From positions 1-23,822 of IMG/VR virus record IMGVR_UViG_3300044632_002125: 23,822 nucleotides of DNA. One strand, 5' to 3'. The stretch comes from a virus. The notes under the pieces were generated by a model. That model saw only the letters and a program-made list of their open reading frames with translations, had not been told where the DNA came from and searched no databases. Shown here piece by piece: positions 4,300 through 18,121 of this stretch. Both the position numbers and the translations under genes were made by a program. Each line of letters begins with the position of its first letter. Position 1 is the stretch's first letter.

Positions 4300-4322
4300 C
4301 CCCGCTTCAAGCGGGGTTTTTT
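4300..4322 (+). terminator. Rho-independent terminator after gp32
   Basis: CCCCGCT (4300-4306), loop TCA, AGCGGGG (4310-4316), then six T (4317-4322): a 7-bp GC-rich stem and U-tract 7 bases after the gp32 stop. The last T residues overlap the stop codon of the convergent gene. On the minus strand the same stem lacks a U-tract, so it is directional. Confidence 0.92.
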
Positions 4323-6561
4323 ATGTTTGTGTAAACAAGTACAATGCTTCTGCATCAATTACACCAGCGACTGCTTGGGAGTCTCCTCTGCCGGCGGAGT
4401 AGTTATTGTTTGTGGTATTAACAGTTGTTCCTCCACCAGCGTCTGGTGACATTAGAGCCATGCGTTGGTCCATATTTTCAATTGAAAGTGCGCTAATTTT
4501 TTCTGATACGGATATTGCATTTTTTAATTCTTCTTCTGTTGGACTTCTGTAGTTGCCTTGCTTATCTTTTACACCAAAATGTAAATGTGGGCCTGTAGAC
4601 CTTCCTGTATTTCCAGAGAGACCTATTAAATCTCCTCGTTTTACTTTTTGGCCTTTTATTACTTTTGAAGAATTTAAATGTGAATAACTGTATACATTAC
4701 CATCAGCATCTTTTATTGAAACAAAATTTCCAGAAGGTAAATTATTTCCTACTGCTATCACTTCTCCATCAACGGCGGCCGTGAGTGGATGATTTGGTCT
4801 TAGTTCAACATCAACGCCTTTGTGAAATTCTCTTTTTGTTCTATCTGTGGGGCTGACTCTATCTCCATATTCACTGCTAACACGATAGCGGCCATGTATT
4901 AAATCATTCATTCTAGGAATTCGCGTAGGTGCAGTACCTGGTGTGACTGGTGTAATTGTACCTGGTGGTTGAGCGGCGCTTTGAGGTGGTGGATTTGATG
5001 GTTGTCTATCGGCTAATGCATCATCTGCGGCATAAATGCCGGTTTCTCGCTCAACTTCTTGCTGATAACTTTCTCGCATAAATTTTGGAATATCTTTTAG
5101 TTGCTCTTGTCGGCGTCTACTTGCTTCTTCTCTTTGTCTTTTTTCTTCCAGTGCCGCCGCAATTTCTATTCTTTTCGTTTCTGCATCAGCGATTCCCAAT
5201 TCCTCATTTGTTAGACCGCCGGGATTGCGGCTTCTACCGAAATAGTTAGTATCTCTGCCTCCAGGTTTATTATAGCCTTCCATTATTTCTTCTAGAGTCT
5301 TTTTAGGACGACCTCGAATTACTGGAAGTTCACTGAGTCCTTTTTTTACTATACCTTCTTGATTTTTTAAATCGGCTTCCATTTCAGGTATAGTTTTTTC
5401 ACTGGTCATATAACCAAAACCAGCAGCTAAAGTAGCAATAGCTGCACCCAACTTTGGTGCAATCAAAACTGCCGGACCCATGTATCCTAATGCTATTGCC
5501 GCAAAAATTTTACCTCGGTTTTCATTGAAAAGTTTATCTGCTTGATACCTGAGTTCTTCTCCCAAAATTGAAAAAGAATGGGCTAAGGTGTTGAACGCCG
5601 CTTTCGAATGAATCAACATTGTTCTAACAACAGGTGCAAAAATTTCTTTAAAACTTTCTACAGCTGGTCTAAATGCGTCTGCAACGGCTGTTCCAATATC
5701 CGAAAAAATTCCATCAATTTTTCCGGCCGTTTCTGTTGAAAAACCAAGTTTGACTAGAATCTGCTTAGTTAAACTATTTTCTTTATCCTCTGGGTCTAAT
5801 CCTAGTCCTTTTAAAATGTCATTTTTTAACGCTGAAAAATTAATATTTTCAGAAACTTTTTTCAACAAATAAGCGACACCCGCCAGAGCAATGGTTCCCA
5901 GTAAAAAACCATTAGGAACAACTCTCATTACAGTAGCAATGGCGGATAAGATACCTCCGCCAATAGTTCCAACGGTACCTAAAAGACCACTAACAACCGC
6001 GCCGAGAAGATTGGCGCCGCCAGAAAATAAACCACCCAAAAGACCAGAAATTCCTGCGCCACTAGACTGTTTATTTCCACCTTCTTTTGTTGGAGATTTT
6101 TTACCCAAAGAGTCGATTGATTGATTTCTGGTTTTTACATCATACCACATGGCATCTTGGGACTTTGCTGATTTACCGGCTGCCAATCTTGTTAGTGTTG
6201 ATATGTTTTGGCGAGTGATATTCATATCTCTGGCCATCATGTTCATATTGAAAGTGTTTTTAGAAATTACGCGAAGAAGTGCTTCTTGTCTTTCACTCGA
6301 TGATATTAAATCACTCGTTGCAGAAGATTGAGCCGCCGCTTGGGCCGAACTAGGAGCACCTGTGGCGCCGGAAGAAAGTGCAGAATAACCACGACCAAAA
6401 ATTTTTTGTCCTGTCGCAGACAACATTCCTTTTCCACCAAAAAGCATATTTCTAACATCCATTCGTTCTCTCGCACTCTTTAGAACGGCAGAACCCATAG
6501 AACTCAAAATACCTTTGCTTTTTAGTTCTTGTTTATAAACTGATGCGAATTTTGTTGCCAT
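4321..6561 (-). CDS. Tape-measure-like tail protein with C-terminal M23 peptidase
   Basis: This is a 746-residue protein. Residues 1-140 are helical and Met/Ser/Ala-rich. Residues 171-234 and about 350-385 are long Gly/Ala-rich hydrophobic stretches, as in tape measures that enter membranes. A charged helical part (about 440-500) and a Pro-rich linker (about 515-545) follow. Residues about 555-675 form an M23 (LytM-type) endopeptidase: H580 and D584 of HKGVD, H628 of YSYSHL, H659 and H661 of HLHFG are the metal-binding and catalytic set, all present. It should cut peptide cross-links in peptidoglycan during DNA injection. Its start shares one base with the stop of the gp26 frameshift extension, the position of a tape measure behind its chaperone. 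The peptidase is certain from motifs; the tape-measure role is inferred and a hub protein remains possible. Confidence 0.8.
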   Translation of the reverse strand: MATKFASVYKQELKSKGILSSMGSAVLKSARERMDVRNMLFGGKGMLSATGQKIFGRGYSALSSGATGAPSSAQAAAQSSATSDLISSSERQEALLRVISKNTFNMNMMARDMNITRQNISTLTRLAAGKSAKSQDAMWYDVKTRNQSIDSLGKKSPTKEGGNKQSSGAGISGLLGGLFSGGANLLGAVVSGLLGTVGTIGGGILSAIATVMRVVPNGFLLGTIALAGVAYLLKKVSENINFSALKNDILKGLGLDPEDKENSLTKQILVKLGFSTETAGKIDGIFSDIGTAVADAFRPAVESFKEIFAPVVRTMLIHSKAAFNTLAHSFSILGEELRYQADKLFNENRGKIFAAIALGYMGPAVLIAPKLGAAIATLAAGFGYMTSEKTIPEMEADLKNQEGIVKKGLSELPVIRGRPKKTLEEIMEGYNKPGGRDTNYFGRSRNPGGLTNEELGIADAETKRIEIAAALEEKRQREEASRRRQEQLKDIPKFMRESYQQEVERETGIYAADDALADRQPSNPPPQSAAQPPGTITPVTPGTAPTRIPRMNDLIHGRYRVSSEYGDRVSPTDRTKREFHKGVDVELRPNHPLTAAVDGEVIAVGNNLPSGNFVSIKDADGNVYSYSHLNSSKVIKGQKVKRGDLIGLSGNTGRSTGPHLHFGVKDKQGNYRSPTEEELKNAISVSEKISALSIENMDQRMALMSPDAGGGTTVNTTNNNYSAGRGDSQAVAGVIDAEALYLFTQT

Positions 6562-6761
6562 TATCGTTTTCTTCTAGCTAAATTTTGTTGTTTAATTTTC
6601 TCATTTTCTTGCTCAATATATTGTAGGAGCATAGTCACGTAAACGTTCCTCTCCCACGGCATCATTTCATTTAAATCACTAAGACTATATTTGTGGTGTT
6701 GCATCAATGCAAAGTTAGTCTGGAAATGATTGCTCAGATTATCATAACGAATGGTTAACCG
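6561..6761 (-). CDS. -1 frameshift extension of gp26 (66 codons)
   Basis: The -1 frame is open from the slippery site at the end of gp26 to a TAA that shares one base with the ATG of the M23 protein. It adds 66 residues, including YSLSDLNEMMPWERNVYV and a charged C-terminal helix ending LARRKR. Slippage after codon 244 would give a 310-residue gp26 fusion. Internal ATG at 6704 could start a 47-residue protein, but I see no ribosome site before it. The sequence looks coding: no stops, helical pattern, and a PWER-type motif reminiscent of the second part of frameshifted tail-assembly chaperones. Whether it is known in relatives I cannot check here. Confidence 0.72.
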   Translation of the reverse strand, partial: RLTIRYDNLSNHFQTNFALMQHHKYSLSDLNEMMPWERNVYVTMLLQYIEQENEKIKQQNLARRKR

Positions 6762-7492
6762 AAAAAACTTTGGATTCCTTCAACTTCAATAGTATCAGAA
6801 TAACCACACTTACCACATTCAAAATCAAGTTTCTTTTTCAATTTTGGAATATTTTCGAAAAAGTTTTGTATTCGTGAAAAATTTTCTCTCGATAAACTAT
6901 CGACAAAATCAATCAATTCTTCTTTTGGTGTATCTTTTGCATAGTAAATACTCTCATCATCATAAATGTAATCTATAGAACCGATTATTGTGTTTAAGAC
7001 CAGTTCAGTTGAAGAAATATTTTTATCCTCAGTTAATGCATCTATACTTCCGAATGTTGGATATTTCAAAACAATTCCAAGTTTAGGAGTCAATTCGACT
7101 TTATTATTTTCTTTTTCTGTTAAATTAGGTTCGACCTCAAGTGCATTGAAACTCAACGAAACAACATGATTACATTTTCTTTTCTCTCCATCTTTTTCAA
7201 TATCGTTGTTGCATTTGTATTGTAAGTCGATGGTCTCACCAACTGACCTTGCTCTCAAATGCAAGAACAGATACTCAAAATCTAAAATAGGCAAATCATC
7301 AACGTCTATCTTAGTAACCAAACAATTTGTAATTATTTGCTTAATCGCTAAGATGACTGCGTTTTGTTCATCTGATTCCGCAGCCATCAACAAAATCTTT
7401 TCTTCTTTCACCAAAAACGGTCTAAACTTTACTTTCTTTTTCATTAATGGTAAAGTAATCTCGTACAATGGCACATCAATTTTAGGTAACAT
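6755..7492 (-). CDS. 26: gp26-like baseplate hub subunit / assembly chaperone
   Basis: The 245-residue product (T4 gp26 about 208) starts LPKIDVPLYEITLPL and continues with KVKFRPFLVKEEKILLMA, the hallmark opening of the T4 gp26 hub family. Two cysteine pairs, around YKC and RKCNH near residue 105 and ECGKCGY near the end, look like a zinc ribbon. In T4 gp26 is needed for hub assembly. GGAG at about 7499-7502 provides the ribosome site, and the gene lies just after the gp54-like gene. The gene ends with a slippery sequence that can extend the product by 66 residues. With the tape-measure-like gene next in line, it probably acts as the tail-assembly chaperone. Confidence 0.82.
   Translation of the reverse strand: MLPKIDVPLYEITLPLMKKKVKFRPFLVKEEKILLMAAESDEQNAVILAIKQIITNCLVTKIDVDDLPILDFEYLFLHLRARSVGETIDLQYKCNNDIEKDGEKRKCNHVVSLSFNALEVEPNLTEKENNKVELTPKLGIVLKYPTFGSIDALTEDKNISSTELVLNTIIGSIDYIYDDESIYYAKDTPKEELIDFVDSLSRENFSRIQNFFENIPKLKKKLDFECGKCGYSDTIEVEGIQSFFG
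6761..6778 (-). promoter_or_regulatory. Programmed -1 frameshift signal
   Basis: On the minus strand the zero frame reads AGT TTT TTC GGT TAA, containing the canonical X XXY YYZ heptamer T TTT TTC (6767-6761), only two codons before the stop. GAAGGA lies 8 bases upstream of the heptamer, similar to the stimulatory Shine-Dalgarno of E. coli dnaX. No strong downstream hairpin is obvious. Confidence 0.7.
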
Positions 7493-7504: not shown

Positions 7505-8293
7505 TTAAAAAATACTGAACGGGTTTCTCAAAGCTTCTTTCGCGGCTGCGGCAGTACCCTTTATCTGCCCAGCTAAAACATCTTTTACAGGTACACCAGC
7601 AATAGAACTTCCAAGCAATGCGGCTGTAGCGGCACCTAAATCATAGCCGCCTTCATAAATTGTTCTATGTCTCTTGTATGCAAATTGAATCGTTAATCTA
7701 TGAAAGCCATCATCAGACCAACTCAGTGGTTGTGCCGAAATTGTTTTTGGGAAAGCATCAATCAACTCAACAGCATAAATTTGTTTGATGAAATCATCGT
7801 ACTGAACAATCGTTATATTTGTCAGGAACCTTGTTTCTTTTCCATTTGGAAACCTGATGTTATTTGTATCTGTAGGAACTATTGCTTCTAACCACTTATC
7901 GAAAAGCTTTCTTTCATAAAATTCATTGGTACAGAGAAAGGTCAATGAGGTGTCTGTATAGACAGCCTGATAAGGAACTTCATAGGTCAAGTTATAGATT
8001 TGTATAGGCTCAGTGTTCAATGATTTACCTGGCAACTCTGCGGCTTCACACTGTAATGCAAGATACCTGGAGATACTTGGATTGAAAGAGCGCGAGTTAT
8101 TTTCACCCAAAACTCTTGTTGAAACGTCCGAAAACACAGAGTTAGGTAGATTCAATAATCTCTCTAAGAATCCATTTTCCAGAAACTTGCTTATGTATTG
8201 TGGTATAGGTAAAATAACCTGAAAGCGATTTGGTCTAGCTAGACCATCTTTCGCTTTGATATTTGATAAAAATAACTGTGGTAAAAATGACAT
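7505..8293 (-). CDS. gp54/tail-tube-like baseplate protein
   Basis: I take the start at 8293 (262 residues, MSFLPQLFLSN), because its ATG shares one base with the upstream stop (TAATG); a longer frame to 8380 overlaps the upstream gene. The segment LARPNRFQVILPIP matches the ARPNxFxV opening of T4-type tube proteins (gp19, gp54). The middle EAAELPGKSLNTEPIQIYN matches their second strand region, and WSDDGFHRLTIQFAYKRH matches the closing beta strands. The size lies between gp19 (about 163) and gp54 (320); with gp48 as divergent neighbour, gp54 (baseplate-tube junction, tube initiator) is favoured. The C-terminus is Ala/Gly-rich. A tail tube protein is the main alternative. Confidence 0.7.
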   Translation of the reverse strand: MSFLPQLFLSNIKAKDGLARPNRFQVILPIPQYISKFLENGFLERLLNLPNSVFSDVSTRVLGENNSRSFNPSISRYLALQCEAAELPGKSLNTEPIQIYNLTYEVPYQAVYTDTSLTFLCTNEFYERKLFDKWLEAIVPTDTNNIRFPNGKETRFLTNITIVQYDDFIKQIYAVELIDAFPKTISAQPLSWSDDGFHRLTIQFAYKRHRTIYEGGYDLGAATAALLGSSIAGVPVKDVLAGQIKGTAAAAKEALRNPFSIF

Positions 8294-8871
8294 TAGAATT
8301 TCTTTCGTGAGTCTGACCAGACTTTGTTTGCTGAAGCTTTTTCGAATTGTTCTACGGGTAACAATGCGGCAATGTCCCATTCGTCAGCAAATATTTCAAC
8401 GAATCTGGATTCAACATGACTGGCCAAGTATCTTTTAATGCAAGGTGTTGCTTCAAAAGCGGTAGCAAAAGCTGACAGAGTTTGATAGCTCAATTTTAAT
8501 CTTGTTTGCATATCGTAGTTTTTATTGCTTGCAAACTGCGATAGTTTATCTAATAGAATTATGCGATGTTTTGGATGAATGTAGTGCAGATTCAGACCAA
8601 GAAAACCATCATTGTATTTTTGTATAGGTATCACCAAAGGAAATCTGTCGTAATAAGGTAATTTGTCTTTTGTTTTCGGGTCGTAGAAGAAGAAGTACAT
8701 ATGACCAATAAAATTCGAATTGGTCATTCTTTCTCTGTCTTGCATCAATTTTTGAGGTGTCGGTTTTAGTTCCGTAACCTTCGAACGTAGCCATGCGCGG
8801 GCCTGCGTGGTGCGAGCTTCGAAACCAGTCTTAGCTAACTGTGTATTGATTCTATCTAATAGGTATGCCAT
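8293..8871 (-). CDS. Conserved-looking protein of unknown function (192 aa)
   Basis: I cannot name this family. The 192-residue protein is soluble and basic, with no signal or membrane segment. It has an N-terminal basic helical region (residues 1-50), a compact core containing HMYFFFYDPKTKDKLPYYDR, then FPLVIPIQKYNDGFLGLNLH, and a C-terminal VESRFVEIFADEWDIAALLP followed by KVWSDSRKKF. The motif density suggests a conserved virion or assembly protein. It lies between gp4 and the gp54-like gene and overlaps the latter by one base, so a tail or head-tail joining role is reasonable. AT-rich sequence with a weak AGAG precedes the ATG. Confidence 0.75.
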   Translation of the reverse strand: MAYLLDRINTQLAKTGFEARTTQARAWLRSKVTELKPTPQKLMQDRERMTNSNFIGHMYFFFYDPKTKDKLPYYDRFPLVIPIQKYNDGFLGLNLHYIHPKHRIILLDKLSQFASNKNYDMQTRLKLSYQTLSAFATAFEATPCIKRYLASHVESRFVEIFADEWDIAALLPVEQFEKASANKVWSDSRKKF

Positions 8872-11370: not shown

Positions 11371-12688
11371 TAGTAATGTAGTAAGCACTTCTCAGTTTAA
11401 AATAAAGAAATTGGCTATTGTTTCTAAAATTGGACCAATAGATGTTTCTGGACTTTTTGAAGAACTGAACATACATGATTGTATTTTTACGCCATGTATA
11501 ACTGGTAATATTTTAATAAATGATTCTATTGGTTTAACAAATAAACTCGCATTCGATGGTTCTGAAGTTTTGGTTGTTGAAATGGGTAAAACAGAACAAG
11601 ATGCAGTTTTTAGTAAATCGTTTAGAATTTATAAGCAATCTGAAAGAAAATCGATTAACCTAAATTCTGAAGCCTATTTGTTACACTTTGTTTCGGATGA
11701 ATTCATACTGTCACAACAAACAAGAGTTGCTGAGTCTTTTAGGGAAACATATTCTAAAGTTGTCGAAAGAATTCTTAAAGAATATTTGGGTGTTCGTGAT
11801 GATATGGTTGGTTATTTTGAAGAATCTGAAGGTATTAGAAACGTATTGATACCTAACAAAAAACCGTTTGATGCAATTAAGTTCTGTTCAAAAAGAGCAT
11901 TAAATAAGAAAAAGTCACCGACATTTTTATTTTTTGAAAATAAACTTGGCTACAACTTTGTAACTCTTTCGAGTATGCTTGCTAGTAAACCAGTACATGA
12001 CATTAATTTTCAAATTAAAAATTTAGCCGATGATGGAAAAGAATTGATGGGTGCTATCAAGTATGAAGTCATTTCACAATTTGATTTAAATAAAAGTATA
12101 AAATCTGGACTTTTTGCAGGAACGTTTATTGGTTTTGATTTGATGACACAGAGCATAGCTGTCAAAACTACAAATTATGATAGCCTTTTCAATAAAAATG
12201 AACACGCAAATAAAACACCGAATATTGGAGTCATAACAAATAAATTCGGAGTGAAAAATACAGAAATGTATGATTCTAGGGTTGTTGTTTTTCCAATGGA
12301 CGCTTTTCGTTCGGAAAGTAATTATATTAAACAGAATGACCCATTATCAATTGATGCTGCCGATGATACTTACAATTATAAGTTGCAAAGACACGCATCT
12401 ATTAGAAACGTTTTAAATCAAAGAGTGAAGGTATTAATGCCAGGTAATTTTGATTTAACTTCCGGGCTAACTGCGAACTTGACGGTTCCGGTAAGAGGTG
12501 AAAAGGCCGAAGGAGTAAATAACATTGATAATTCATTAAGTGGAAAATATTTGATTATTGCTTCAAGACAAATGATTACATATCAAAAACACGAAACTAT
12601 TATTGAAGTTGCTACGGATTCCAATAATAGAGATTCATATTATCGTAGCACCGAACTACAAAACAACTTTATGGATTACTATGGATGA
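11363..12688 (+). CDS. 27: gp27 baseplate hub subunit
   Basis: The product is 441 residues (T4 gp27 about 391). The opening region contains DVSGLFEELNIHDCIFTP and TGNILINDSIGLTNKLAFDG, the standard gp27 tube-like domain signature, and SEAYLLHFVSDEFILSQQ follows. gp27 trimers form the hub ring that supports the gp5 spike and joins the tail tube. The C-terminal part contains NQRVKVLMPGNFDLTSG and GKYLIIASRQMITYQKHE, typical of the second hub domain. It overlaps both neighbours by 8 bases. The gp5 N-terminal gene comes directly after, as expected for partners in the hub-spike complex. Confidence 0.9.
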   Translation: MSDSNVVSTSQFKIKKLAIVSKIGPIDVSGLFEELNIHDCIFTPCITGNILINDSIGLTNKLAFDGSEVLVVEMGKTEQDAVFSKSFRIYKQSERKSINLNSEAYLLHFVSDEFILSQQTRVAESFRETYSKVVERILKEYLGVRDDMVGYFEESEGIRNVLIPNKKPFDAIKFCSKRALNKKKSPTFLFFENKLGYNFVTLSSMLASKPVHDINFQIKNLADDGKELMGAIKYEVISQFDLNKSIKSGLFAGTFIGFDLMTQSIAVKTTNYDSLFNKNEHANKTPNIGVITNKFGVKNTEMYDSRVVVFPMDAFRSESNYIKQNDPLSIDAADDTYNYKLQRHASIRNVLNQRVKVLMPGNFDLTSGLTANLTVPVRGEKAEGVNNIDNSLSGKYLIIASRQMITYQKHETIIEVATDSNNRDSYYRSTELQNNFMDYYG

Positions 12689-13853
12689 TAATAAATTCGT
12701 TACTCACATAACCGATTTTGAGGTAAACTCACAGAACCAAATCACGGGGTTCATTACATGGATTGGAATAGTTGAAGATATTTTTGACCCCCTGAAGTCA
12801 GGTCAAGTGCGAGTAAGGGTTATTGGGTTTTATAACCCAGACAGAGTTAAGATGCCAACAGAAACTTTACCATGGGCTACCGTAATAATACCGAGTACAG
12901 GCGCTGACGGCACTTCACGGCTTCAACTTGGTGATTGGGTTACTGGTTTTTTTCTTGATGGACTTGAAGGTCAGAGACCGACAGTTTTAGGAAAATATAA
13001 CGGTGTTTATTCGCAGAACCCCGACCTTATTTCTAATAGACTTCTTGACCCCAACTATGGAAATAGTATTTTTAAAAATACTAGTTATGCAGTAAGTCAG
13101 TTGACACCTGAGCAACAAAAAATGTTGAGGTCTTATCCTAAACCTGCTTTAGGTACACTTAAACAAATTTACGATAGACCAACGTCACCGCTTCTCTCTC
13201 AAGGAATTGTCGAAGGTACTGCTGTTGGTGTAGCAAATAAAAAAAGAGCACACGTTTGTGATATTAGTGGAGCAATGAAAACTGCTGCCGCAGCCGCACG
13301 AATTGCATTTGGTGTATTAATGCAAGGAATTCGCGCCGCCGTTCGCGCAGTGTTAACGGCTCTTGGATTCAATCCAGAAAGTGAATCTGGAAGATTTCTA
13401 CAACTGGCATTATTAATTATTAGAGGAATAAAATATGCACAGGCGTTTATTGATGAAATTAATGATTATGCTCAGGTTTTTATTGTTTATGCAAAGCAAG
13501 TTCGTGCAATGATTGATTGGATTTTAAATTTACCTAAAGCTCTAGCCGCAATGCTTGCAGGGTGTTTAAATGAATTATTAAATGCGGTTAGTGTTGGTTT
13601 TTCATCACTTGTTGGGGGTTCTATTGGTGTAGATTTGCAACAATCTTTAAAAGTCGTCAACGATATCGTAGATTCCGGAAAAAAACTTATAAACGATACT
13701 ACAAAACTGCTTACTGTGCCTGGCCAGGTTGTTGATGCACTTGCTAGACCTTCTACATCGGAAACGCAAAATGCGGCACTCAATACTGTTCTTACTTTTA
13801 CATCCAGTTTTTCAACATCAAACAATTCTTTAAGTAGCATATCGAGACCTTAA
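12681..13853 (+). CDS. 5: gp5 N-terminal part: OB-fold hub protein without lysozyme
   Basis: I chose ATG 12681 (390 residues, MDDNKFVTHI), which overlaps gp27 by 8 bases; a longer frame to 12603 lies inside gp27. Residues 26-107 are the OB-fold domain of T4 gp5: GIVEDIFDPLKSGQVRVRVI, then PTETLPWATVI and a DWVTGFFLDG to TVLGKY ending. In T4 a lysozyme domain follows; here I find none of its motifs. Instead residues about 190-345 form an Ala-rich helical region (ISGAMKTAAAAARIAFGVLM, IDWILNLPKALAAMLAG) of unknown function. The beta-helix spike is encoded by the next gene. This is thus a hub connector between gp27 and the spike. Confidence 0.85.
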   Translation: MDDNKFVTHITDFEVNSQNQITGFITWIGIVEDIFDPLKSGQVRVRVIGFYNPDRVKMPTETLPWATVIIPSTGADGTSRLQLGDWVTGFFLDGLEGQRPTVLGKYNGVYSQNPDLISNRLLDPNYGNSIFKNTSYAVSQLTPEQQKMLRSYPKPALGTLKQIYDRPTSPLLSQGIVEGTAVGVANKKRAHVCDISGAMKTAAAAARIAFGVLMQGIRAAVRAVLTALGFNPESESGRFLQLALLIIRGIKYAQAFIDEINDYAQVFIVYAKQVRAMIDWILNLPKALAAMLAGCLNELLNAVSVGFSSLVGGSIGVDLQQSLKVVNDIVDSGKKLINDTTKLLTVPGQVVDALARPSTSETQNAALNTVLTFTSSFSTSNNSLSSISRP

Positions 13854-13855
13854 TT

Positions 13856-14770
13856 ATGGCAGCAATACAAAATTTTGATGATGGTTCTTATATACAGACA
13901 TTCGAAGATGGTTCCACATTAACGATGGATGCATCTGGGAATATTACGTCTACTCCTCCAACAAAACCAGAAGGTGATTATTCCTGGACTGAACCCGAAT
14001 CTGAAGCAAACGTTGAGAATCCTCCAGTTTACCCATATAACAACGTCACACAGACGGCATCTGGACATACATTCGAATTAGACGACACCAGAGGTCGTGA
14101 AAGAATCAGACTTCAACATGGCGGCGCTAGAACCGGCGGACAAGGTACCTTTTTTGAAATGCATTCTAATGGTGATAGAGTAGAAAAAATAATAGGAAAA
14201 AATTATCAAATTGTCGCTAAAGACAACAATGTTTTAATTAGTGGTGTATGTAATATTACGATTGAAGGTGATTCTGTTGTACACGTTAAAGGTGACAAAT
14301 ACGAAAGAATTGATGGCAATTATATACAAGAAGTTCGTGGCACATATACACAAAATTTAAAAAAGAAAGCGACAATTACCTCCGATGAAGACATGACCAT
14401 TGGTGTTGGAAAAATTGGCACAGGTGTATTAACTTTTTCTGGTGACTATGTTTATTTGGATAGTGATTTAACTGTTGCTGGTTCAGTGACGGGTGATATG
14501 ATTAGTGCCACTTATAAAGTAAATGCAGGCACCGGTGTTACTGCTGGACCTTTAGGCTTTGCTACATTATTGGGTGGTGTTTCTGCTGGTTTACCTGTAG
14601 CTATTCCTGGACAAGTTAACGCATTGGTTTCGGTAAGTGCTCCGTTGATAAATGGTATTATTGTTAAAGACATACAAGGCACTATGCTGGGAATGAGAAT
14701 GATATATAACTTCCATAAGCATCCAGCACCAAAAGGTATCACTGGGCTTCCTGTCAAACCTATGTTATAA
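13856..14770 (+). CDS. gp5 C-terminal part: beta-helix spike as separate gene
   Basis: This 304-residue protein matches the T4 gp5 C-terminal region: YPYNNVTQTASGHTFELDDT (59-78), ERIRLQHGG, and IIGKNYQIVAKDNNVLI. It then has five exact octads with the x-x-G pattern (ISG, IEG, VKG, IDG, VRG) at residues 128-167, the repeat that builds the trimeric beta-helix needle. After a Gly/Ala-rich region comes NFHKHP (H287, H289), a possible iron-binding HxH tip as in P2-type spikes, so no separate PAAR cap may be needed. It starts 2 bases after the upstream stop, making the pair equivalent to one T4 gp5 gene minus its lysozyme. The role is piercing the outer membrane. Confidence 0.85.
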   Translation: MAAIQNFDDGSYIQTFEDGSTLTMDASGNITSTPPTKPEGDYSWTEPESEANVENPPVYPYNNVTQTASGHTFELDDTRGRERIRLQHGGARTGGQGTFFEMHSNGDRVEKIIGKNYQIVAKDNNVLISGVCNITIEGDSVVHVKGDKYERIDGNYIQEVRGTYTQNLKKKATITSDEDMTIGVGKIGTGVLTFSGDYVYLDSDLTVAGSVTGDMISATYKVNAGTGVTAGPLGFATLLGGVSAGLPVAIPGQVNALVSVSAPLINGIIVKDIQGTMLGMRMIYNFHKHPAPKGITGLPVKPML

Positions 14771-16048: not shown

Positions 16049-18121
16049 ATGGCTGACCGTTTAAATGTAACTGAGTTAGATTTTGACTCAATAAAATCAA
16101 ATTTAAAAAATTATCTTAGACAACAATCTGAGTTTCAAGACTATGATTTTGAAGGCTCTGGCTTAAATGTCTTGTTGGATATTCTTGCTTATAATACTCA
16201 CTATAATGCATACTATCTTAACATGGTAGCTAACGAATCTTTTATGGATTCGGCCGCACTGAGAAATTCTGTTGTATCTCACGCTAAAAGAGTTGGATAC
16301 ACACCACGTTCCGTATCTGCTCCTAGAGCCGTTATAAACATCACTGTTCAAACGAATAATTCGACACCAGGTTCTTTAAGTATACCTAGAGGATATTATT
16401 TTCTTGCATCACAAATTGATGGTAAATCATACAGATTTGTTACACTAGAATCTTTCACAACCACAAAAACTGGAAACAATTTTGTCTTTACAAGTGTTCC
16501 GGTTTATGAAGGACAGTTCGCTTCTTATTCTTATAATAACAGTTATGCAAATAATCCAAAACAACTGTTTACGATACCAGATTCGAATGTGGATACTAGC
16601 ACTTTGAAGGTTAGCGTAAGACAATCTTCTTCAAACAATGAAACGATTGTTTATACACAAGCAACCGAAATTCTAAATTTGACTTCAACCTCTACTGCAT
16701 ATTATTTGCAAGAGGGAAGAAACGGCCAGTATGATGTTTATTTCGGTGATAACATTATCAGCAAAAAGATTCCAGATGGTGGAGTTGTTACTTTAGAGTA
16801 TTTAATTTCGAATGGTCCTGAGTCAAATAAAGCAAATAACTTCACCTCTACACTTTCGATTGGTGGCTTTTCATCAATTTCCGTAAATCCAATTACTGCC
16901 GCTTCCGGTGGCTCGACTAGAGAAAGTGTCGACCAAATTAAATTTGCCGCGCCATTGAATTTGCTTTCACAGAATCGCGCAGTTACAAAGAACGATTATA
17001 TTAAATTAATTCAGCAAAAGTACCCATCTTTCGAATCAGTTAATGTTTGGGGTGGTGAAGAAAATGACCCACCAGTTTATGGTAAAGTTTTTATTGCTGC
17101 CAAACCAAAACTTGGTTTTGAGGTAACAAATACTGAAAAAGACTTTATTAAGAATACAATTTTAAAACCGATAAGCATCTTGACGGTTACGCCAGAAATT
17201 GTTGATATAGATTACAATTATTTGAAAGTAACTTCAACCGTTTTTTATGAAAAAAGTAAGTTATCAGTTTCTGATTCTGAATTGAAAACTGGTATTAAAT
17301 CTGCCGTCGAAAATTATTGTTCGACCAACTTAAACGAGTTTAATAGTTACTTTAAATATTCTGGACTAGAAACTGCAATTGATAGTTATAATTCAGCAAT
17401 TGTTTCTAACGAAGTTGAATTGTTTGTTGCTAAGAAGTTTAGACCCGCACTGAATCAGACAGATAACTATATGTTAGATTTTGGATTCGAATTGAATAGG
17501 GGAACAACAAGCGATAACTTCTATTCTTCACCAGACTTTACAGTTATCGATGAAGAAGGTGTTTCGCGCAAATGTTTCTTTGAAGAAATTCCTTCTTCAT
17601 TTACTGGCTTAGAATCTGTTACAGTTACAAGTCCAGGTTTTGGTTACACTACGACACCAACAGTAACTGTTGTTGGTGACGGCACAGGCGCCACCGCAAG
17701 AGCCGTCATCGTTAACGGAAAGCTATCTAAGGTCGAAGTGTTGACACCTGGAGTTGGTTACACCACTGCTGCCATTCAAGTTACTGGTGGTGGAGGAAGT
17801 TTGGCCGCAGGTTCTGCGGTTTTAGAAGGAAGATATGGTAAACTTAGAATCTCATACTATAAAGTTGATGAGATTAGTAGCCAAAGTACAAAAGTAGTTA
17901 TCAATAAAAATAGAAATGAAGGTATCGTTGGTACGATTGATTATCTATTGGGTAAAATAACAATCAATAACTTCCAGCCAACATCGGTGAATAATTCATT
18001 CGGTGATATTATGGTTCACATCAAACCCAAAATCAACATTATTCAGTCGAAATTGAATAAGATGCTTGTTTTGGATGCAGAAGACCCAACAAGCGTAATT
18101 GTTAAAACAGTTATTATCTGA
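16049..18121 (+). CDS. 6: gp6 baseplate wedge subunit (J-like)
   Basis: The 690-residue product (T4 gp6 about 660) has the classic N-terminus LKNYLRQQSEFQDYDFEGSG followed by LAYNTHYNAYYLNMVANESF, shared by T4 gp6 and baseplate J proteins. gp6 dimers form the continuous inner ring of the baseplate. The middle contains RAVTKNDYIKLIQQKYP, the family's second conserved part. Residues about 523-590 hold two GxGYT-type repeats (SPGFGYTTTPTVTVVGDGTG and TPGVGYTTAAIQVTGGGG), an insertion compared with T4. The stop and the gp7 start share one base (TGATG). Confidence 0.93.
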   Translation: MADRLNVTELDFDSIKSNLKNYLRQQSEFQDYDFEGSGLNVLLDILAYNTHYNAYYLNMVANESFMDSAALRNSVVSHAKRVGYTPRSVSAPRAVINITVQTNNSTPGSLSIPRGYYFLASQIDGKSYRFVTLESFTTTKTGNNFVFTSVPVYEGQFASYSYNNSYANNPKQLFTIPDSNVDTSTLKVSVRQSSSNNETIVYTQATEILNLTSTSTAYYLQEGRNGQYDVYFGDNIISKKIPDGGVVTLEYLISNGPESNKANNFTSTLSIGGFSSISVNPITAASGGSTRESVDQIKFAAPLNLLSQNRAVTKNDYIKLIQQKYPSFESVNVWGGEENDPPVYGKVFIAAKPKLGFEVTNTEKDFIKNTILKPISILTVTPEIVDIDYNYLKVTSTVFYEKSKLSVSDSELKTGIKSAVENYCSTNLNEFNSYFKYSGLETAIDSYNSAIVSNEVELFVAKKFRPALNQTDNYMLDFGFELNRGTTSDNFYSSPDFTVIDEEGVSRKCFFEEIPSSFTGLESVTVTSPGFGYTTTPTVTVVGDGTGATARAVIVNGKLSKVEVLTPGVGYTTAAIQVTGGGGSLAAGSAVLEGRYGKLRISYYKVDEISSQSTKVVINKNRNEGIVGTIDYLLGKITINNFQPTSVNNSFGDIMVHIKPKINIIQSKLNKMLVLDAEDPTSVIVKTVII

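Follow-up and report, generated by a model that had tools for sequence, protein, structure and literature searches.

A conserved slippery heptamer at the end of a gp26-like gene points to -1 frameshifting of a tail assembly chaperone in a T4-like phage

In phage lambda (G/GT), ribosomes slip by -1 close to the end of a gene that precedes the tape measure gene, and a minority of the product thereby gains a C-terminal extension; the lambda slip site is G GGA AAG. The gp26-like locus analysed here lies in a window of 23,822 nucleotides (the whole stretch of DNA that was analysed), a T4-like phage fragment with genes for the tail tube, for head closure, for the DNA end protector and for the baseplate. 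It resembles lambda in this arrangement but is unrelated in sequence, and its slip site is U6C. The slip site of phage P2 E/E' is T TTT TTG. Here too the likeness is one of arrangement, a T-rich slip site in a myophage tail gene that precedes the tape measure gene (Christie et al. 2002), with no sequence relation shown between the two. Frameshifted tail genes as a class are credited to Xu, Hendrix and Duda (2004), as cited in PMC10885494 (PRFect). The chaperones of Vandenendeviridae and Andersonviridae (PMC12846349) share with the window a conserved poly-T -1 site and an open -1 frame (>200 bp) that leads up to the tape measure gene; they differ in having a GTTTTT site in another heptamer context, and are likened by arrangement, not by family.

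For the tail assembly chaperones of T4-like phages the work cited both in PMC10885494 and in PMC12846349 (phage Adele) is that of Vladimirov, Gautam and Davidson (2022; Virology 566:9-15); as relayed by these two papers, T4-like phages have poly-T slip sites in their short-form genes, and some have separate short and long genes. The likeness of the window to the gp26/gp51 chaperones of this group consists of the PF12322 family, the C-terminal domain of PHROG 634 and the existence of short and long forms, and the window fits the frameshifting groups as they are outlined there. T4 has two genes without slippage, whereas the window has one gene with a slip site. Vladimirov and co-workers are said to have found frameshifting conserved in several T4-like groups, T4 itself reportedly using genes 26 and 51. 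A frameshifted chaperone is already known in T4-like phages; the window is a well-supported further member and brings no new mechanism.

The features of the locus are listed in Table 1. The product of the gp26-like gene matches PF12322 (T4_baseplate; Pfam 2e-57, 194.8 bits against a curated cut-off of 24.5) and PHROG 150 (3.2e-63), and the 3' end of the gene reads GAA GGA ATC CAA AGT TTT TTC GGT TAA (zero frame, minus strand). An earlier note on this DNA had described a slippery heptamer two codons before the stop, followed by a 66-codon open -1 frame that shares one base with the start of the next gene. When sequence and translations were read again, all of its coordinates proved correct to the base and the heptamer was indeed canonical and in phase, but the sense codons between it and the stop number one, not two. 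The shared base was read directly in TAATG, and the 310 residues given for the fusion match the count (244 + 66 aa). After FF the -1 frame is translated as RLTIRYDN...ARRKR.

Table 1. Features of the gp26-like locus (positions are those of the window)
Feature	Position	Strand	Basis
Gene for a 746-aa product with an M23 peptidase domain, probably the tape measure protein and presumably the chaperone's client	4321..6561	(-)	position + Pfam
TAA, stop of the extension; last base is the first of the next gene's ATG (TAATG)	6561..6563	(-)	direct reading
-1 frame extension, 66 codons, all helical, TAC-C / 'gp51' domain	6564..6761	(-)	PHROG 634, dN/dS, AF2
gp26-like gene, 245 aa, predicted short chaperone form (TAC-N)	6755..7492	(-)	PF12322 T4_baseplate, PHROG 150
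TAA, zero-frame gp26 stop, one codon past the heptamer	6755..6757	(-)	direct reading
GGT, single sense codon between heptamer and stop	6760-6758	(-)	direct reading
Slippery heptamer T TTT TTC, X XXY YYZ phase	6761..6767	(-)	direct reading + relatives
ATCCAAAG, spacer between GAAGGA and heptamer	6775-6768	(-)	direct reading
GAAGGA, Shine-Dalgarno-like; candidate internal stimulator, separated from the heptamer by 8 bases	6776..6781	(-)	direct reading
Gene of the tail tube protein, immediate upstream neighbour of the gp26-like gene	7505..8302 (start approximate)	(-)	PHROG 45, 3629

Some tape measure proteins carry an M23 domain, and one is found in the 746-aa product (Pfam, 2.2e-25). The description of this gene as tape-measure-like thus stands on its position and on the domain; a BLASTP comparison of the product with two annotated tape measures gave no match. 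Elsewhere in the window, two consecutive genes (12681-14770) match PHROG 430 (baseplate hub and tail lysozyme), one in its N-terminal part (8-115) and the other in its middle (312-471). It seems from these matches that gp5 is split here; an M23 peptidase domain resides in the 746-aa gene instead. The gp6-like baseplate protein (16049-18121) is closest to those of Pelagibacter and Methylophilales myophages, at ~41% identity.

The statistics obtained from the window's single sequence favour frameshifting, though they are suggestive only. When gp26's own codons were shuffled, an in-phase T TTT TTC within the last six codons had P ~0.0009; any in-phase XXXYYYZ near the end of gp26 has P ~0.05, and 66 open -1 codons, taken alone, P ~0.017. 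Among the 69 in-phase XXXYYYZ sites of the window (7177 codons), the one in gp26 is followed by the longest open -1 frame (66 codons; the next has 53).

The check proposed in the earlier note, a search of relatives for a conserved heptamer at the end of gp26 with an open -1 frame, came out clearly in favour: 80 out of 80 IMG/VR relatives, which span gp26 identities of 42-100%, have an in-phase T TTT TTY with a stop after one further codon, and the -1 frame is open and homologous in all of them; because of this the observation was accepted as real. The sole variant of the heptamer, the T TTT TTT of L055, is likewise slippery. A tree and a synonymous-site analysis were based on 45 representatives with <95% nucleotide identity. 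On that tree, the third positions of the slip site underwent 0, 0 and 1 parsimony changes against a gp26 median of 12 per codon, and the ratio of observed to expected synonymous divergence at the slip codons was 0, 0 and 0.1 against a median of 0.93. Phe codons mix freely over gp26 as a whole (TTT:TTC = 428:185), whereas at the slip site the order is fixed, TTT and then TTC. Comparison thus shows, at the level of sequence, the slip site, its phase and its conservation. Only one other column of the gp26 alignment is as frozen as the slip codons: the Leu codon of column 2 (near 7489, minus strand) is TTA in 44 of the 45 relatives, with zero third-position changes, perhaps reflecting a constraint on the initiation region.

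The extension behaves as a protein domain. It is matched by PHROG 634 ('baseplate hub assembly catalyst', gp51) with 3.5e-26 over positions 56-118 of 121, the match beginning at the second slip Phe, and its AF2 model (pLDDT 86) has three helices, the first of which spans the junction; a fold search with the 68-residue C-terminal domain returned nothing significant. Codons 1-19, which lie upstream of the first ATG, have dN/dS values of 0.06-0.11 in four of five clades (0.34 in the fifth, where the changes are too few to judge). The first TTG/ATG of the window's -1 frame is found at codons 19-20 and has no ribosome-binding site. The relatives have no conserved start codon or ribosome-binding site in the -1 frame in common, and even the most frequent ATG, that of codon 20, gives way to GTG or ATA in several lineages. 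The earlier remark that no ribosome site supports independent initiation is borne out by this absence of a conserved site and by the purifying selection on codons 1-19. Because these codons are selected as protein and no start is shared, their translation can enter only from gp26; comparison of the relatives shows the -1 frame to be read as protein directly from the slip site.

The same design was found in isolated phages, namely S-PM2, ACG-2014j, S-SZBM1, P-SSM4, S-H34, S-B64, Pelagibacter phage HTVC008M, Sinorhizobium phage phiM12, pf16, DLP_6, Aeromonas phages 65 and Ahp1, Cronobacter phage S13 and relatives of KVP40, as well as in two marine single-cell phages; the heptamer of all these T4-like isolates is T TTT TTC or T TTT TTT. 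T4 gp26 ends GAG TTC TTT GAG, with neither extension nor slip site. T4 gp51, encoded on the opposite strand, has a gp26-like domain and an extension domain in one chain: the extension profile aligns with its C-terminus (hhalign E 2.7e-5, residues 200-244, Phe200 lying opposite the second slip Phe), whereas no alignment with T4 gp26 was obtained with hhalign. Since gp51 is the fused form and gp26 lacks the extension, T4 would thus make from two genes what the window makes from one.

A homologous-looking open -1 frame also follows gp26 in three Ackermannviridae, Vibrio phages K445 and K469 and Dickeya phage PP35 (L091 2226, L093 2172, L094 2244). Where T TTT TTC would be expected, ahead of the stop, these phages have TCA CTT TTC AAG, ACG CTT TTT GCG or GAA ATT TTC ATT, which suggests that a different slip site is used. 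In cyanophage records the extension is given as a separate gp51 that starts just past the gp26 stop, or is left unannotated (L082 2510-2683, L083 2508-2691, L085 1513-1704); no joined gp26-extension feature was seen in those records.

The last observation touches on the main competitor of frameshifting, namely that the extension is a small gene in its own right ('gp51'), with its own start or translated by termination-reinitiation at the gp26 stop. A separate gp51 is annotated in S-PM2, P-SSM4, S-SZBM1 and others, and most cyanophage annotations agree. The earlier note had held that relatives keeping the extension as a separate gene with its own start would speak against fusion; no such start is conserved, but some relatives do have an ATG overlapping or adjoining the stop codon of gp26 (TGATG or TAATG), and reinitiation there could supply additional free C-terminal domain. 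Reinitiation is possible in some relatives, not in the window. As a general account, a separate gene is very improbable, given the late TTG/ATG devoid of a ribosome-binding site, the conservation of codons 1-19 under purifying selection and the fusion of the two domains in T4; moreover, an independent gene would give gp26's last Phe codons no reason to be frozen at their third positions.

Slippage of RNA polymerase on the U6 run, adding a U to some mRNAs, would yield the same fusion. There is a homopolymer before the fusion, and longer runs occur in two relatives (8 T in L055, 7 T in pf16). However, 44 of the 45 representatives have TTTTTTC, and the run never departs from its codon phase, although polymerase slippage needs none. 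Six U is a short run for efficient slippage by polymerase; because of the short run and the constant phase, we consider this explanation still less probable than a separate gene. As for a chance heptamer beside an accidentally open frame, or a sequencing error that split one gene, in-phase XXXYYYZ sites are admittedly common in this AT-rich genome, as the 69 counted above attest. Yet 80 contigs, drawn from many samples, share this stop and the open -1 frame, as do phages isolated on many different hosts. Conservation refutes both, and their probability is negligible.

It is therefore very probable that the gp26-like gene yields a short and a long tail assembly chaperone by -1 programmed ribosomal frameshifting. 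The proposal that gp26 is a frameshifted tail assembly chaperone, made in the earlier note, gains support from the frozen third positions, the selected extension, the fusion in T4 gp51 and a predicted N-terminal fold that resembles those of known tail assembly chaperones. Most ribosomes would end at the TAA and release the 245-aa short chaperone. In a minority, we infer, the two tRNA-Phe in the P and A sites on UUU UUC would slip in tandem one base back to UUU UUU, and these ribosomes would bypass the gp26 stop, so that their product is 310 aa long and ends in a helical C-terminal domain. Both forms would then coat and present the tape measure protein encoded by the next gene while the tail tube subunits assemble around it.

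The predicted fold of the N-terminus is consistent with such a role. In the AF2 model of the gp26-like protein (pLDDT 86), the N-terminal 85 residues resemble the tail assembly chaperone HK97 gp13 (2OB9; Z 7.1, rmsd 3.3 over 83 residues, 11% identity), although the window's gp26 has a further region of ~160 residues. The top three PDB structure matches are 2OB9 and two other small proteins, YqbN (3KLU) and 3FGX, with Z of 7.1-7.8 (under 8), the next match having 2.8; YqbN belongs to the XkdN-like chaperone group. The model supports, but does not prove, a TAC-N fold. Foldseek with the predicted gp26 structure gave no significant match, and PDB sequence searches with the window's gp26 and with T4 gp51 gave nothing. 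For T4, gp26 and gp51 both figure as hub assembly chaperones in PMC3004832, according to which gp51 is needed for assembly but does not remain in the final particle.

Potential stimulatory elements were sought on both sides of the heptamer. GAAGGA, previously likened to the dnaX stimulator, is present at the distance claimed, but no nucleotide constraint beyond the encoded amino acids was detected among the 45 representatives. It encodes a conserved Glu-Gly, and relatives carry purine-rich equivalents. Whichever synonymous codons are chosen, Glu-Gly yields GAAGG or GAGGG, and relatives move freely between the synonyms; because of this, conservation is uninformative on whether GAAGGA acts, and from its sequence the motif is a possible upstream stimulator. 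A downstream stem, whether of a hairpin or of a pseudoknot, gained no support: RNAalifold gave just four pairs, none of them covarying, and the region after the heptamer showed no RNA structure in the window itself (z-scores 0.3 and 0.8).

Extension codons 4-6 (6752-6744, minus strand) show third-position changes of only 4, 6 and 2; the consensus of the relatives is TTT CGT TAT, and the window has ATT CGT TAT. Third-position changes are thus unusually rare in the TTTCGTTATGA region, and no RNA structure is predicted there. The low change may reflect an unstructured stimulator or merely codon preference. That such a downstream element, ~9-20 bases past the heptamer (consensus TTTCGTTATGA), boosts the U6C slip in this clade is conceivable, though we regard it as unlikely.

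These results settle how an often misannotated gene pair should be read: in cyanophages and their relatives, the small 'gp51' appears to be the C-terminal half of a frameshift product. Since this 'gp51' would be part of a longer protein, automatic annotation loses the long chaperone. The window offers a clean comparison with T4, where both proteins come from two genes.
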